A stretch of 64,000 bases of DNA from assembly GCA_000163555.2 (NCBI GenBank), contig ADAC02000001.1, positions 992,001-1,056,000 on the forward strand, written 5' to 3'. Position 1 is the stretch's first letter, and each line of letters opens with the position of its first letter. Positions 35,864 to 44,828 of the stretch are shown here, piece by piece. This DNA is from an alpha proteobacterium HIMB114. GTDB taxonomy: Bacteria > Pseudomonadota > Alphaproteobacteria > Pelagibacterales > Pelagibacteraceae. The notes under the pieces were generated by a model that searched no databases, was not told where the DNA came from, and was given only the letters and a program-made list of their open reading frames with translations. The position numbers and the translations under genes are program-made.

Positions 35864-36523
35864 GTGAAAGTTGAAAAAAAAGATAAAGCAAAAATAATAC
35901 TTAAAGAACTTAATAAACTTTATCCAAAAACACCTTCCCCACTAACTCATACGAATAATTTTACTTTACTAATTTCGGTATTACTTTCTGCTCAATGTAC
36001 AGATTTGAATGTTAATAATGTTACAAAAGATATTTATCCAAAATATAATAAACCAGAACATTTTGTAAAATTAGGTCAAAAAAAAATAGAAAAACTCATT
36101 CAAAAGATTGGTCTTTTTAGAATGAAATCAAAAAGCGTGTATCGCTTATCAAAAATTCTGCTTGATAAGCATGGAGGAAAAGTGCCCAAAACTTTTGAAG
36201 AACTTGAAGCATTACCAGGTGTTGGACATAAGACTGCTAGTGTGGTGATGTCTCAGGGATTTGGTTATCCAGCTTTTCCGGTAGATACTCATATTCACCG
36301 ACTAGCACAAAGGTGGGGTTTAACGAATGGAAAAAATGTAGTTCAAACTGAGAAGGACTTAAAAGAACTATTTCCAAAAAAACACTGGAATAAACTACAT
36401 TTACAAATCATCTTTTATGGCAGGGAATATTGTAAAGCTAGGGATTGCTTTGGTCTGGAATGTAAAATATGTACACAGTGCAATCCAAAAAGAAAAAAGC
36501 CAATTTTAACTAAGAAAGCTTAA
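35864..36523 (+). CDS. nth: Endonuclease III (DNA glycosylase/AP lyase)
   Basis: Nth removes oxidised pyrimidines in base excision repair. The helix-hairpin-helix ALPGVGHKTASVVMSQGF near residue 109 includes the catalytic Lys, and the catalytic Asp is in FPVDTHIHRLA near 133. The C-terminal cysteine cluster reads CKARDCFGLECKICTQC, with spacing different from E. coli's C-x6-C-x2-C-x5-C, but four suitable Cys exist for a 4Fe-4S cluster. GTG at 35864 is used as start, giving 219 residues, six bases after dapB. Confidence 0.94.
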   Translation: MKVEKKDKAKIILKELNKLYPKTPSPLTHTNNFTLLISVLLSAQCTDLNVNNVTKDIYPKYNKPEHFVKLGQKKIEKLIQKIGLFRMKSKSVYRLSKILLDKHGGKVPKTFEELEALPGVGHKTASVVMSQGFGYPAFPVDTHIHRLAQRWGLTNGKNVVQTEKDLKELFPKKHWNKLHLQIIFYGREYCKARDCFGLECKICTQCNPKRKKPILTKKA

Positions 36524-36526
36524 AGG

Positions 36527-37456
36527 ATGAAAGTATTAGGAATAGGTAACGCCATTGTAGATGTACTTTGTAAAGTTGATGATCAATTTATTAAAGATCA
36601 TTCTCTTACAAAAGGAACTATGAAACTGGTTGATGAACAAGAATTTCAAAAACTTTTATCTAATTTAAAAATTGAAAGTACAGTATCTGGCGGATCCGTT
36701 GCAAACTCAATTGTTGGGATGTCTCAATTAGGAGATAATGTTTCGTTTATTGGTAAAGTTAATGATGATGATCTTGGCCATAAATATATTGATGGCCTTA
36801 AAAAAGAAAATGTAGATTATTTTTACAATGTTAAAAAAGAAAACATTCCTACAGGAACTTGTTTAATTTTGATCACTCCAGATTCTGAGAGAACAATGTG
36901 TACTTTTTTAGGAATTGCAGGCCAAATTGATGATAATGATATTGATACAAATGCAATTCAAAATGCTGAAATTACTTTCTTAGAAGGATATTTGTGGGAT
37001 GAAGGTGGTCCAACTAAAGCTTTCGAAAAAGCTTTATCAGCTGCAAAAAAATCAGCGATGTCCCTTTCTGATCCGTTTTGTGTTGACCGACACAAAGATA
37101 GTTTTTTAAATTTAGTAAAAAATAAATTAGATATTATTTTTGCAAATGAAAAAGAGGCGATGTCTTTAATTAATGCAAAAAATTTTGACGAGGTTATTGA
37201 ATTTGGAAAATCACTTAATAAACTTTTTATTGTAACGCGTTCTGATAAAGGCTCTATTGCTATAGAAGGAAACGATGTGTCTGAAGCTCATGCTAAATCA
37301 AACTTAAATATTGTAGATCTTACTGGTGCAGGTGATTTATTTGCTGCTGGTTTTTTACATGGGTTTACTAATAATAAAAACCCACATGAAAGTTTGAAGT
37401 TAGGAACTGAAATGGCTTCAAAAATTATACAAAAAATTGGTGCTCGTTTAGATTAG
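36527..37456 (+). CDS. PfkB-family sugar/nucleoside kinase (adenosine kinase-like)
   Basis: A 309-residue ribokinase-superfamily enzyme. It begins VLGIGNAIVDVLCKVDD, has the first signature SGGSVANSIVGMSQLGDNVSFIGKV near residue 55 and the second, DLTGAGDLFAAGFLHG near 264, with the catalytic Asp. The GNAIVDV start and KGTMKLVD segment resemble alphaproteobacterial proteins annotated as adenosine kinase, but sugar specificity cannot be settled from sequence. It sits 3 bases after nth and may share its transcript. Confidence 0.88.
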   Translation: MKVLGIGNAIVDVLCKVDDQFIKDHSLTKGTMKLVDEQEFQKLLSNLKIESTVSGGSVANSIVGMSQLGDNVSFIGKVNDDDLGHKYIDGLKKENVDYFYNVKKENIPTGTCLILITPDSERTMCTFLGIAGQIDDNDIDTNAIQNAEITFLEGYLWDEGGPTKAFEKALSAAKKSAMSLSDPFCVDRHKDSFLNLVKNKLDIIFANEKEAMSLINAKNFDEVIEFGKSLNKLFIVTRSDKGSIAIEGNDVSEAHAKSNLNIVDLTGAGDLFAAGFLHGFTNNKNPHESLKLGTEMASKIIQKIGARLD

Positions 37457-37490: not shown

Positions 37491-38441
37491 ATGAAAAAAA
37501 TTATAATTTTATCATCATTATTTTTAATTATTTTTACATCAAATTCTTTTTCAAAAATTGAGATCAAAAAAGTAAAAAAGCATAATATCGAATTAATCAA
37601 ATTTCAAAGTCCAGATAGAAAATTTCCTGGAAAAGATGATGTTATTGCACAAATTCATTTTCCTAAAAATACAAGCGGTAAATTACCCGTTATAATTTGG
37701 CAGCATGGCAGTAGTCGTGATGGTTCAAAATTTAAAAAATGGGGAGGAAAAACTGATGAAATGGGTAAAAGAATAGCAAAAAAAGGTGTGGAACAAGGCT
37801 ATGCTGTTGCTTTACTGGACTCTTTTTACAAAAAAGGAATTAAACCTACTGACAAAAAAAAATTTCCTAACGCAATTTTTTTTGGCGTTGTTTTAAAAAA
37901 TATTTTATCCAAAGACCCAAGATTTGATAACAAACGTTTTTATTATGGTGGATTTAGCTATGGAGGAAGCCAAGCTTTAAAATTATATAGCCCAATTTTT
38001 GCCAAGCTTAACCCTCCATGGAAAGCAATTGTTTCGGCCGAACCAGGATGTAACGGCGTTCAATATCCTGCAAAAGTAAGTTTTAAAGGGTTAATTATAA
38101 AAGGAGAGGAAAGTCATTACTATCCTCCAGCATGTATTTATTACCATAAGCTACTTCAAAAAGTTGGGAATAATGTAGAATTAGTAACAATTCCAAAAGT
38201 AAACCATTTTTTTAGTTTAAATGGTGTAATTGGAAAAGGAGTTGCTTTTAATGGATGTACAAACAATATCGCAATTAGATATCCAGATGGATCTTTTAAA
38301 TTTGCAGACGGTACACCCACAAGCAGAAAAGAAATAATAAAAAAATGCATGACGAAAGAATCCGGCGTAGGAAAAACTCGTGAAAAATTAGATGAGGCAG
38401 TAGATCTAACGATTAAATTTTTTAATAAATATAATAGGTGA
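37491..38441 (+). CDS. Secreted dienelactone-hydrolase-like alpha/beta hydrolase
   Basis: A 316-residue protein with a signal peptide (IIILSSLFLIIFTSNSFS) followed by an alpha/beta hydrolase domain. The nucleophile elbow GGFSYGGSQAL (Ser near residue 158) and a late VNHFF (probable catalytic His near 240) are seen, and IWQHGSSRDG resembles the oxyanion region. Dienelactone hydrolases normally use Cys; the Ser here points to a different ester or related substrate, unknown. The 3' end overlaps the convergent transporter gene by 36 bases. Confidence 0.78.
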   Translation: MKKIIILSSLFLIIFTSNSFSKIEIKKVKKHNIELIKFQSPDRKFPGKDDVIAQIHFPKNTSGKLPVIIWQHGSSRDGSKFKKWGGKTDEMGKRIAKKGVEQGYAVALLDSFYKKGIKPTDKKKFPNAIFFGVVLKNILSKDPRFDNKRFYYGGFSYGGSQALKLYSPIFAKLNPPWKAIVSAEPGCNGVQYPAKVSFKGLIIKGEESHYYPPACIYYHKLLQKVGNNVELVTIPKVNHFFSLNGVIGKGVAFNGCTNNIAIRYPDGSFKFADGTPTSRKEIIKKCMTKESGVGKTREKLDEAVDLTIKFFNKYNR

Positions 38442-39809
38442 AAAAAGAGCTGCAATAAAAGACCAGAATAATAAATAATTTGAAATTATTGCTGGGAACA
38501 TAGATTTATCAAACAAAGTTCCAACTAATAAACTTTTAGAAAAATCTGGACTTGGAAATAACAATAAACCTAAAATTATTCCAAAAATAATCGCTTTAAA
38601 TACATCATAATGTTTAATTTTTTTATTATAAAAACCATAAAAAATTGGAATTGCAGCAGCACAACATAATAAATCGGCTAGTAAAAATAGATACAAAACA
38701 CTCATTCCTTTTGATGAAATATAAAAAGCAGAGCCTGCTAAAAGGATACCGCCAGTAATATAAAAATTATTAATATTTTTCTTTTTAATAGATTTATTTG
38801 AATGAATAACAAAAAGGCTTGAGACACTTGCAATCAGAGTATCCAAGCTACTTAAAACCAACGTTAATGATAGAATTAAGATAACTAAATTTAATAACAA
38901 ATACTCTTTGTTAACTAATAAAGAGAAAATAATAATGCTTGGGTCTTTTATCTTTCCATTTAAAGAAGCATAAATTCCAACTAAACCTAAAAGCAAAATA
39001 GTTATTAAAACAATACAAAATGCTGCTGTAAAACCTTTTTTTAACACCTCAATATTCTTAGATGCATAAACTCTTTGCCAAATCCCTTGGTCAAATAAGT
39101 TAGTTGCAAAAACAGCAATAAAAAAAGTAAGACCAGCAGTAAATCCTCCAAAACCAATACTTAAATTTGAAGATTTACTCATAATCAAACTTGGAGAAAG
39201 AAAATCTATTTTTTGGTTTAAAATTATAAAAATAATTAATAAGAAAATTATGATAATCCAGAACTGAAGTTTATCTGTAATGATAGATATTTTTAGACCA
39301 CCTTTTAACGAATAAATTAATGTAGAGATAATAGTCAAAGCTGCAGTTAACCATAAAGGAGTACCTAAAATTAAATTAACAACTTTTGAAATTGCTGTAA
39401 CTTCAGCACAAAAATAAACATAAAGATAAAGTATAGTTAAAATTAAAATTAATTTTAAAACTTTTTGATCGTACCTTTTTTCAATAACTTCAGTTAAACT
39501 TTTGGCGTTTGGCAAAATTTTTCTAATCTTTTCACCAATTTTGGAAAAGTATAAAAATACAAAACTTTGACCTGCTGCATAACCAATTACAGCCCCTACT
39601 CCGCCCCAGGTTGATGCTTCTGCAGGACCAATCAAAATCCATATTCCAAAACAAGATGCAGTTAAACTAAAAGTTAATCCAAAGACATTAACGTTTCGGT
39701 CACTGACTAAAAAAGCAGACTGTGAGATTTTTCCTCTAGATACATAATAACCAAAGGACATAAATCCTAAGCAAACTACAAAGAGCGAAATAATTAAAAT
39801 CGTGTTCAT
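38406..39809 (-). CDS. thiV: SSS-family transporter under TPP riboswitch control (putative thiamin-precursor importer ThiV)
   Basis: A 467-residue sodium:solute symporter family protein with about 13 membrane segments; the conserved region FGIWILIGPAEASTWGGVGAVIGYAAG lies near residue 55 (partly quoted). A TPP riboswitch directly precedes it, so it is almost certainly involved in uptake of thiamin or a precursor. In SAR11 an SSS transporter downstream of a TPP riboswitch has been named ThiV and proposed to import the pyrimidine precursor HMP, which these organisms need. The name here rests on riboswitch, family and organism type. Confidence 0.85.
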   Translation of the reverse strand: MNTILIISLFVVCLGFMSFGYYVSRGKISQSAFLVSDRNVNVFGLTFSLTASCFGIWILIGPAEASTWGGVGAVIGYAAGQSFVFLYFSKIGEKIRKILPNAKSLTEVIEKRYDQKVLKLILILTILYLYVYFCAEVTAISKVVNLILGTPLWLTAALTIISTLIYSLKGGLKISIITDKLQFWIIIIFLLIIFIILNQKIDFLSPSLIMSKSSNLSIGFGGFTAGLTFFIAVFATNLFDQGIWQRVYASKNIEVLKKGFTAAFCIVLITILLLGLVGIYASLNGKIKDPSIIIFSLLVNKEYLLLNLVILILSLTLVLSSLDTLIASVSSLFVIHSNKSIKKKNINNFYITGGILLAGSAFYISSKGMSVLYLFLLADLLCCAAAIPIFYGFYNKKIKHYDVFKAIIFGIILGLLLFPSPDFSKSLLVGTLFDKSMFPAIISNYLLFWSFIAALFSPIIFIKKFNR

Positions 39810-39815
39810 ATGTTT

Positions 39816-39885
39816 TCTTCCTCCGCCAGCATTATCTGGATCAGGTTTAAAGGGTTCATCTCAGGCTAAGCCGCCCCTGAAAACT
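39816..39885 (-). promoter_or_regulatory. TPP riboswitch (THI element)
   Basis: On the minus strand the conserved THI-box parts are present in order: GGGGCGGCTTAGC, then CTGAGATGA (39864-39856), ACCCTTTAAACCTG and CTGATCCAGATAATGC, ending GGCGGAGGAAG. The final GGAGGA also serves as the ribosome-binding site about 9 bases before the transporter ATG at 39809. This suggests control by occlusion of the ribosome-binding site, with TPP binding turning expression off. No terminator hairpin is seen between aptamer and gene. Confidence 0.95.
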
Positions 39886-39938
39886 AATAGATAAGTACAG
39901 TATTTTGCAAAAAAGTCTATCGGTGATATCTTTTAAAA

Positions 39939-40322
39939 ATGAAAAATAAAATAATTATACTATTATTATTTTTTTCTATTCAATTTACCTCTAACAGCTT
40001 AGCTGATCATTGTGGTCACGACATGGATAGGACTTGGTTTTATACATCGAATTTTTCATCAAACTATCAAGTTAGTAAATCAAGAGCCAAATATCAAAAA
40101 TGGACCTTTAAAAATAAAACTGACAAGCAAATTACAATTTACAGCGTAGGTCTTTGGTCAAAAGGCAAAAAAGTCATGAAAGAACAAAAGGTAAAGAAAT
40201 ATCTAAAACCTTTTGGTGTAGTGTCAGTGAAAATGTATGTTGGTGACCTAAATCTTGATGTTGCTGGAAGTGGTTTTTCTAGATGTGAATACGGCAAACC
40301 AGTTGTTAAAAAAAACATATAA
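39939..40322 (+). CDS. Secreted protein of unknown function (possibly the N-terminal part of the next gene)
   Basis: A 127-residue protein with a clear signal peptide (IIILLLFFSIQFTSNSLA, cleavage before DHCGHDM). The mature part has a His/Cys/Asp cluster HCGHDMD at the start, one later Cys (FSRCEYG) and a beta-rich middle (KWTFKNKTDKQITIYSVGLW). No family was recognised. It ends in an 8-adenine tract; reading with one fewer A (or two more) would continue into a basic, proline/tyrosine-rich linker and the DUF805 domain downstream. It is divergent from the thiV-type gene and shares its upstream region. Confidence 0.68.
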   Translation: MKNKIIILLLFFSIQFTSNSLADHCGHDMDRTWFYTSNFSSNYQVSKSRAKYQKWTFKNKTDKQITIYSVGLWSKGKKVMKEQKVKKYLKPFGVVSVKMYVGDLNLDVAGSGFSRCEYGKPVVKKNI

Positions 40323-44249: not shown

Positions 44250-44828
44250 ATGTTTAAAATTTTTTTTTATATTAATGAATTAAACGATATTCAAAAAGAA
44301 AATCTTAATCAACTAAAGAATATAAATATTATTTACAGAAATTACCAAAAAACTGATTACCTTGGTAATGCTTTCAAACTTCAAGATTATTGCAAAAAAA
44401 GAAAATTTAGACTCTATATTTCCAATGACGAAAAGTTAGCCATAAAACTTAGGTCTTATGGTTTATATATACCAAATTTTAATAACAAAAAAAAATATTT
44501 AAAATCAAGTCTACATCTTATTGGTTCTGCTCATAATGAAATTGAATTACGTAAAAAAATTAACCAAGGCTGCAAAGAGATCTTTATCTCACCTATTTTT
44601 AATACTTATTCAGACTCAAACAAAATTGGCAAAGGCTTGAATTTTTATCAAAGCTTAATGTTAAAATTTTCGAAGATACACATCCATGCATTAGGTGGCA
44701 TTAATGAAAAAAACATAAAAAAAATAATTCTTCTTAAAGGAAGAGGTTTTTCATCAATTAGTATGATTGATAAAAAAATGAAAAAAGACTTCATTTCCTA
44801 TCTTAATTTAATTGCTACAAACCTTTAA
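44250..44828 (+). CDS. ThiE/TenI-like thiamin-phosphate-synthase family protein
   Basis: A 192-residue TIM-barrel protein of the ThiE/TenI family. Recognisable pieces are LIGSAHNEIELRKKINQGCKEIFISPIFNT near residue 93 (family: S.H...E...A...GADYI..GPIF.T) and IHALGGINEKNIKKI near 147. The phosphate-binding and pyrophosphate-binding residues of true ThiE are only partly conserved, so it may be TenI-like, or an active but diverged TMP synthase. ATG 44250 is used because longer forms run into YggS. It precedes leuS by 17 bases. With the riboswitch-controlled importer 4 kb away, a role in thiamin salvage is plausible. Confidence 0.72.
   Translation: MFKIFFYINELNDIQKENLNQLKNINIIYRNYQKTDYLGNAFKLQDYCKKRKFRLYISNDEKLAIKLRSYGLYIPNFNNKKKYLKSSLHLIGSAHNEIELRKKINQGCKEIFISPIFNTYSDSNKIGKGLNFYQSLMLKFSKIHIHALGGINEKNIKKIILLKGRGFSSISMIDKKMKKDFISYLNLIATNL

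Follow-up and report, generated by a model that had tools for sequence, protein, structure and literature searches.

A canonical TPP riboswitch aptamer overlaps the ribosome-binding site of a ThiV-type symporter gene in the SAR11 bacterium HIMB114

Results

The aptamer and the gene behind it

The window analysed here is a 64,000-nucleotide stretch of contig ADAC02000001.1 of HIMB114. Within it, cmscan placed a TPP riboswitch aptamer (RF00059) on the minus strand at 39888-39801, spanning the full model (1-105) with 71.1 bits and an E-value of 5.3e-12; its flanks reach codon 3 of the downstream gene, thiV. Given a curated gathering threshold of 54.3 bits for this family, the match is far beyond chance and bears out the THI-box aptamer proposed by the initial annotation. 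The element lies where it had been claimed; its orientation, however, had to be corrected to the minus strand, and the box drawn around it (39816-39885) truncates the 3' strand of P1 at 39816. No second RNA family reached the gathering threshold in the whole 64-kb window, and the RF00059 search reported no second TPP aptamer in the 1,237,371-base (1.237 Mb) genome to which it belongs.

Numbering positions by homology to E. coli thiM, we assigned the parts of the aptamer from the sequence and the cmscan alignment, all on the minus strand. The P1 5' strand GUUUUC (39879-39884) forms 6/6 pairs with the 3' strand GAAAAC (39812-39817) and is followed by P2 (AGGG, 39875-39878) and a very short P3 (GGC-UUA-GCC, 39864-39872). 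The CUGAGA at 39859-39864, made up of the last P3 base and J3-2, corresponds to the pyrimidine-binding T-loop (PMC3764141, PMC7824784). The 5' strand of P4 is CCU (39843-39845), and J4-5 contributes GAU (39840-39842), equivalent by thiM homology to G60-A61-U62, with G60 at 39842 and AU at 39841-39840. P5 (CCAG/CUGG) closes the L5 loop AUAAUG (39830-39835), which in thiM docks on P3 (PMC3764141). On the returning side, J5-4 carries the C77-G78 equivalents (39824-39825), assigned to pyrophosphate contacts (PMC7824784, PMC3764141), and the 3' strand of P4 is AGG (39820-39822), then AA. Both the CUGAGA pocket and the pocket of G60 and C77/G78 in the AU/CG internal loop are found in the window copy, in which position 79, the partner of G60 in the model, is a G. 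The positions described as highly conserved in TPP aptamers are U39-A43, U59/A80, G60, C77 and G78, with G78 touching the pyrophosphate (PMC3764141), and hydrogen bonds are reported from both C77 and G78 (PMC7824784).

The Shine-Dalgarno (SD) sequence GGAGGA (39819-39824) consists of aptamer bases. Its first base (39824) is the G78 equivalent, and it continues through P4, spanning J5-4, the P4 3' strand and J2-4. The aptamer had been described as ending in GGAGGA; instead, the P1 3' strand follows, standing between the SD and the start codon, and then come AU and the AUG at 39809-39807. With this start codon 9 nt beyond it, GGAGGA does serve as the ribosome-binding site of the SSS gene, as had been proposed.

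That gene (38406-39809, minus strand) encodes a thiV-type sodium:solute symporter of 467 aa. The predicted SSS-family membership is confirmed by Pfam (PF00474 SSF, E 8.5e-11), and the protein is homologous to SAR11_0811, the ThiV of HTCC1062, with 47.6% identity over 441 aa. A promoter-like TTGAAT-18-TATAAT at 39954-39983 on the same strand is a candidate thiV promoter by consensus match only (10/12 positions); the region holds 5 such sites versus 1.0 expected from shuffles.

Thiamin genes elsewhere in the genome

A homology search of the HIMB114 genome gave no match to ThiC, and a ThiD-type kinase is present (PF08543, 297 bits). We rejected TenA salvage for this genome, because its PF03070 (TENA) match is the folate-related CADD protein, other than TenA. 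TenA is what makes AmMP usable, and with CADD as the PF03070 match HMP itself is the likelier need. PF03070 gave five matches in four of the seven genomes searched; among the three scanned, those of genomes G000 and G005 are CADD and one of G040 is TenA. The latter (salvage_TenA, 142.8 bits; locus L175, 1498-2160) sits between nth-like and pfkB-like genes, whose window counterparts (35864-36523 and 36527-37456) lie side by side without an intervening gene.

A thiE-like gene had also been noted about 4.4 kb from the aptamer. A TMP-TENI gene is indeed located there (44253-44828; 52.6 bits in Pfam), between YggS-like and leuS-like genes, but its identity as ThiE was not upheld: it is a weak, diverged paralogue that scores 41.4 bits with the NCBIfam thiE model, whose cut-off is 145.1. 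A better ThiE candidate, at genome position 757,901, reaches 126 bits in Pfam and 122 bits with the NCBIfam model, which is also below the cut-off. A link between the riboswitch and the 44253-44828 gene was rejected on these grounds.

Overlap of aptamer and ribosome-binding site

No terminator-like site was found on either strand between 39780 and 40010. The thiV start codon lies 2 nt past P1, which leaves no room for a leader terminator ahead of the gene. With its SD bases belonging to the fold that the ligand would stabilise and no such site nearby, the leader has the anatomy of direct SD occlusion. Relatives have a short spacing, too: the P4 AGG and the start codon are 13 nt apart in each of the nine aptamers that precede thiV in the window's genus (g1) and in g8, and, with start codons chosen mechanically, a callable ORF begins 5-13 nt from the P4 AGG in 109/110 aptamers read across the SAR11 family, the 110th lying at a contig end. 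Yet the coupling, singled out as very compact by the initial annotation, is not special. In 11/23 sampled TPP aptamers of non-SAR11 Alphaproteobacteria the start codon is likewise at most 15 nt from the P4 AGG, and we therefore rejected SD overlap as a SAR11 speciality.

Energy folding of the leader (ViennaRNA, 39893-39768) failed to reproduce a switch. At 37 C, the ligand-free minimum is -23.2 kcal/mol, with P4 formed and P1 broken; the aptamer as drawn comes to -17.4 and a fold constrained to leave the SD unpaired to -17.8. The differences grow at 20 C (-37.6, -25.9 and -32.8 kcal/mol, in that order). The P4 AGG is mostly paired without ligand (unpaired probability 0.05-0.10). Since the AGG stays paired and the aptamer is not the minimum, the energy model does not explain a clean ON state. 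The proposal of ribosome-site occlusion is thus supported by the anatomy and not by the energy model.

Two forms of the RNA within the Pelagibacteraceae

We searched 197 Pelagibacteraceae genomes with RF00059 and kept matches at E <= 0.001. A TPP match was obtained in 167 of them, one reported in each, and 30 had none; only 16/197 exceeded the curated cut-off. We fetched and read 110 of the 167 matches; the remaining ones were classed by pattern, and three were checked by cmscan alignment. The canonical J4/5 loop is present in 16/110 (seven in g1, three in g8, five in g12 and one, G166, in g5) and absent in the other 94. In total, and unexpectedly, 151/167 genomes with a match, HTCC1062 included, lack the C77/G78 pyrophosphate contacts, and 16, the window's included, are canonical. 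The exact pattern of the collapsed form occurs in 150/197 genomes, at one place each, and G019, one base off the pattern, completes the 151; the 197 are thus made up of 151 collapsed, 16 canonical and 30 without a match. Form and score do not coincide: the matches above the cut-off comprise 12 canonical and four collapsed copies, the latter from g6, and four canonical copies (G012, G023, G040 and G166) fall below it.

The collapsed copies read keep CUGAGA, the U59/A80 equivalents and, except for one g6 copy (G019, with U), G60. In the main group (87/94), CCUG directly abuts the P5 strand and a single base separates P5 from AGG, as in CCUG-UCCG-GUAAUU-CAGA-A-AGG; the seven g6 copies have one extra base before P5. 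In Infernal alignments, precisely the AU and CG columns of J4/5 are empty in the HTCC1062 copy (L095, 2001-2089) and in L114, as are the CG columns and one AU column in the g6 copy L026. The outer P5 pair of the 87 is U-A, A-U or G-U according to lineage. At the third position of P5, 79 have a C-A mismatch and 8 a U-A pair, which weakens the reading of these RNAs as a collapsed aptamer.

The collapsed RNAs do not look decayed, judging from their P3 arms, which pair in 44/44 distinct main-group segments (mean 2.59/3 versus 2.15 for shuffled arms, 0/500 shuffles as high). On the other hand, main-group copies pair poorly in P1 on average, slightly above shuffled partners, with 2.63/5 pairs versus 2.32 (0/200 as high, indicative of some excess); the best free helix averages 3.38 versus 3.41 (126/200 as high). 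These P1 values, too, weaken the reading as a collapsed aptamer. In the seven g6 copies P1 forms 4.86/5 pairs, a number that shuffling cannot test.

Outside SAR11, both forms were sought with exact patterns that demand UAAU in L5. The canonical-loop pattern matched in 29/337 genomes of a draw from the Alphaproteobacteria, namely two SAR11 and 27 others; CUGAGA lies upstream in 23 of these 27 places, and four have no CUGAGA nearby. The collapsed pattern matched in 3/337: both g4 genomes, among four SAR11-family members of the draw, and G198. The G198 match, the only one in the class draw that falls beyond the SAR11 family, was, by pattern only, taken as chance, with no aptamer seen at that place; this match aside, the exact pattern found no collapsed form in the 333 non-SAR11 Alphaproteobacteria. 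A slightly stricter pattern gave 0/349 in a draw from the phylum. Six matches on viral contigs were, by pattern only, likewise taken as chance, since no GGGG occurs in the 45 nt upstream. Because the patterns are exact and need UAAU in L5, they would miss other collapsed forms, and since even the canonical pattern matched in only 29/337, the lack of collapsed forms outside SAR11 holds for these patterns only. Canonical aptamers do occur in Alphaproteobacteria outside SAR11, and we therefore take the canonical form as ancestral. In a midpoint-rooted tree built from 60 of the 94 full-length ThiV, which carries a long-branch warning, proteins behind canonical and collapsed aptamers fall on either side of one branch, which corresponds to one change. 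That the split is a single event likewise weakens the collapsed-aptamer reading.

The substrate motif of ThiV

The two sets of transporters also differ in transmembrane segment 6 (TM6). The sequence is LF-D-QG-I-WQR in each of the 12 full-length ThiV encoded behind a canonical aptamer and LF-H-QG-N-WQR in each of the 82 behind a collapsed one; nine alignment columns are invariant among the 12 and hold something else in at least 97% of the 82. The published cTMD6 criterion asks for a conserved Phe with His and/or polar residues after it (PMC11452348). The window protein keeps the Phe (F239) and has Asp240 in place of His and Ile243 in place of Asn; the mapping of this motif to SiaT position 254 is our own. 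Since the predicted substrate motif differs, the substrate of ThiV in the window's clade may be something other than HMP and is best treated as uncertain for this lineage. We found thiV under a TPP aptamer in three Alphaproteobacteria outside the SAR11 family as well, all canonical, with F-H-HG-N in G453 and F-N-Q in G520 and G343. As G453 combines His and Asn with a canonical aptamer, we rejected the idea that the Asp/His difference tracks the type of aptamer, and Asp/Ile probably arose within the clade of the window.

Other genes behind the aptamer

ThiV is not the only protein encoded behind these RNAs. In genus g2, 11/18 aptamers read precede a 289-aa protein and seven precede ThiV. The former is NMT1/THI5-like (PF09084, 90.2 bits for the one of 11 scanned, the others sharing its N-terminus), and the two kinds of gene appear under the same collapsed riboswitch, as in L044 (2001-2943) and L111 (2001-2942) versus L056 (2001-3501) for ThiV. 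Among six g2 representatives compared, the same two neighbours, a RimK-like gene and lpxB (by eye), flank the NMT1-like gene of L044, L111 and L040 and the ThiV gene of L056 and L059; the upstream neighbour of L055, also with ThiV, differs. A search with the G033 ThiV found the protein in G033 itself and in G071, and in 0/11 g2 genomes with the NMT1-like gene, which are 61-92% complete, so that a copy elsewhere in them may have been missed. By eye, the 289-aa protein shows no obvious signal peptide, and the stretches seen contain no adjoining transporter gene. Among solved structures, its nearest relatives are 4nmy, a binding protein (E 4e-7), and THI5/THI13 of yeast (E 0.004-0.025); it lacks the lysine of the KAMIH motif found in yeast. 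An HMP-P synthase is one possible identity for it.

Canonical aptamers have other neighbours, too. In two g12 genomes (L033 and L025, 1501-3088), the aptamer is followed by a Gcw_chp outer-membrane-type protein, called by scan in L033 and by eye in L025, and then by a ThiV-like ORF. In G031, a g1 genome, it precedes a short-chain dehydrogenase (SDR) gene (scanned), and in G048 a like gene, called by eye (loci L022 and L017, 1501-2346 in each); neither has an evident thiamin role.

Discussion

What the window holds is a TPP riboswitch of the canonical form, placed on the gene of a ThiV-type symporter. ThiV and its TPP riboswitch have been described in SAR11 (PMC11452348, PMC4260697, PMC2704228), and the Pelagibacter riboswitch is listed among those with robust secondary-structure predictions (PMC4260697). 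As the pairing is already published, the arrangement in the window is known in kind and constitutes one more case of it. For the window element itself, we infer TPP binding, the OFF sign, translational control and the substrate; for the SAR11 thiV riboswitch at large, ligand specificity and activity have been described as still to be confirmed (PMC11452348).

We consider it likely that this riboswitch, in the 5' leader of a sodium symporter gene in a SAR11 cell with no ThiC found, shuts off translation at high TPP and that the symporter imports the pyrimidine half of thiamin. High TPP would bridge the CUGAGA pocket in J3-2 and the G60/C77/G78 pocket in J4/5 and thereby lock P4 and P1. With the SD bases held in the locked J5-4, P4 and J2-4 and the P1 3' strand next to them, ribosome loading would be blocked and the importer would not be made. 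At low TPP, P1 and P4 would open and thiV would be translated. ThiV would then supply the pyrimidine, most likely HMP, to ThiD and ThiE. The suggestion of the initial annotation that this is the SAR11-type arrangement for import of the pyrimidine precursor gains support from the Rfam and Pfam matches, the homology to ThiV, the ThiC search and the published work on SAR11 ThiV.

That repression of translation is probable rather than established leaves room for control at another level. The same riboswitch might act on transcription, by premature termination or polymerase release; the SAR11 switch has in fact been described as proposed to turn off transcription (PMC11452348), and Rho-dependent ends leave no detectable hairpin. 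We regard this as unlikely, given the lack of a terminator-like site at 39780-40010 on either strand and an SD that lies within the aptamer. A further published point counts against our preferred reading, namely that constitutive expression of ThiV was inferred in HTCC7211 (PMC11452348). At the far end stands the possibility that the RNA regulates nothing, being a fortuitous match or a decayed remnant. We found no binding data on a SAR11 copy in the accessible parts of the literature, and two genomes of the window's own genus lack the aptamer-thiV unit: G031, whose aptamer precedes the SDR gene, and G039, which has no TPP match (84 and 86% complete, respectively, with ThiV found in neither). 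Against this, the aptamer and thiV occur together in 6/8 g1 and 3/3 g8 genomes of the draw, the P3 arms pair in 11/11 distinct canonical segments (mean 2.18/3 versus 1.01 for shuffled arms), and together with the score of the match (71.1 bits, E 5.3e-12) this makes an idle RNA exceedingly improbable.

Instead of HMP, the protein of the window's clade could carry another, perhaps positively charged, thiamin-related solute such as AmMP or thiamin. The uniform Asp and Ile in 12/12 at TM6 against His and Asn in 82/82, the nine clade-fixed columns and the probable derivation of Asp/Ile within this clade, given the His/Asn of G453, speak for this reading. These differences, however, amount to one split on the ThiV tree and hence a single event, TenA was not found in the window genome, where the PF03070 match is CADD, and HTCC7211 is reported not to use thiamin (PMC11452348); we thus hold another solute to be rather unlikely, and prefer import of HMP. 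Thiamin and AmMP at pM and nM levels are reported not to support SAR11 growth (PMC4260697).

The window copy is of value as a canonical contrast. In other SAR11 the pyrophosphate pocket has gone missing across a whole lineage, which divides the RNA of this family into two kinds, with and without that pocket. From sequence comparison, we tentatively suggest that the RNA of the HTCC1062 clade, which lacks C77/G78 in J4/5 and keeps the pyrimidine pocket, G60 (with one exception) and UAAU in L5, might respond to a ligand that is unphosphorylated or held in another way, HMP or thiamin for instance, and no longer read TPP via its pyrophosphate. It would then form a variant riboswitch class, with g1, g8 and g12 keeping the ancestral form and the swapped gene of g2 possibly encoding an HMP-P synthase; this idea may well prove wrong. 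If true, some of the ocean's most abundant cells would carry a variant riboswitch class. The question bears on which molecule SAR11 cells respond to in regulating the import of a vitamin precursor that they need. The accessible parts of the literature gave us no mention of a J4/5 loss in SAR11 TPP RNAs, and the supplements of PMC4260697 (Pelagibacter structure) and PMC2704228 (lengths) may show it.

The nearest known system is the thiV (SAR11_0811) switch of HTCC1062 and HTCC7211, which matches the window in gene family, position and overlap with the SD and start. The HTCC1062 match (786499-786587) overlaps the intergenic region 786467-786574 before SAR11_0811, which is listed with a TPP riboswitch (PMC2704228). 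The two nevertheless differ: the HTCC1062 copy scores 43.3 bits with the AU and CG columns of J4/5 gapped, whereas the window copy is canonical at 71.1 bits, and the ThiV proteins, at the identity given above, have different TM6 motifs. An SSS transporter under a THI element, as in the window, is also known from Methylobacillus (Rodionov 2002, cited in PMC4260697) and from metagenome fragments (PMC2211319), the latter source naming thiV under THI elements. In G453, from a different lineage, the gene starts 43 nt past the P4 AGG, unlike in the window.

Compared with E. coli thiM, the window aptamer has a P3 of 3 bp with a 3-nt loop, and its SD lies inside the aptamer with no separate expression platform seen, whereas thiM uses a separate anti-SD element. 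The conserved positions of thiM (2GDI), namely U39-A43, G60, C77, G78 and the UAAU of L5, are all present in the window copy as well.
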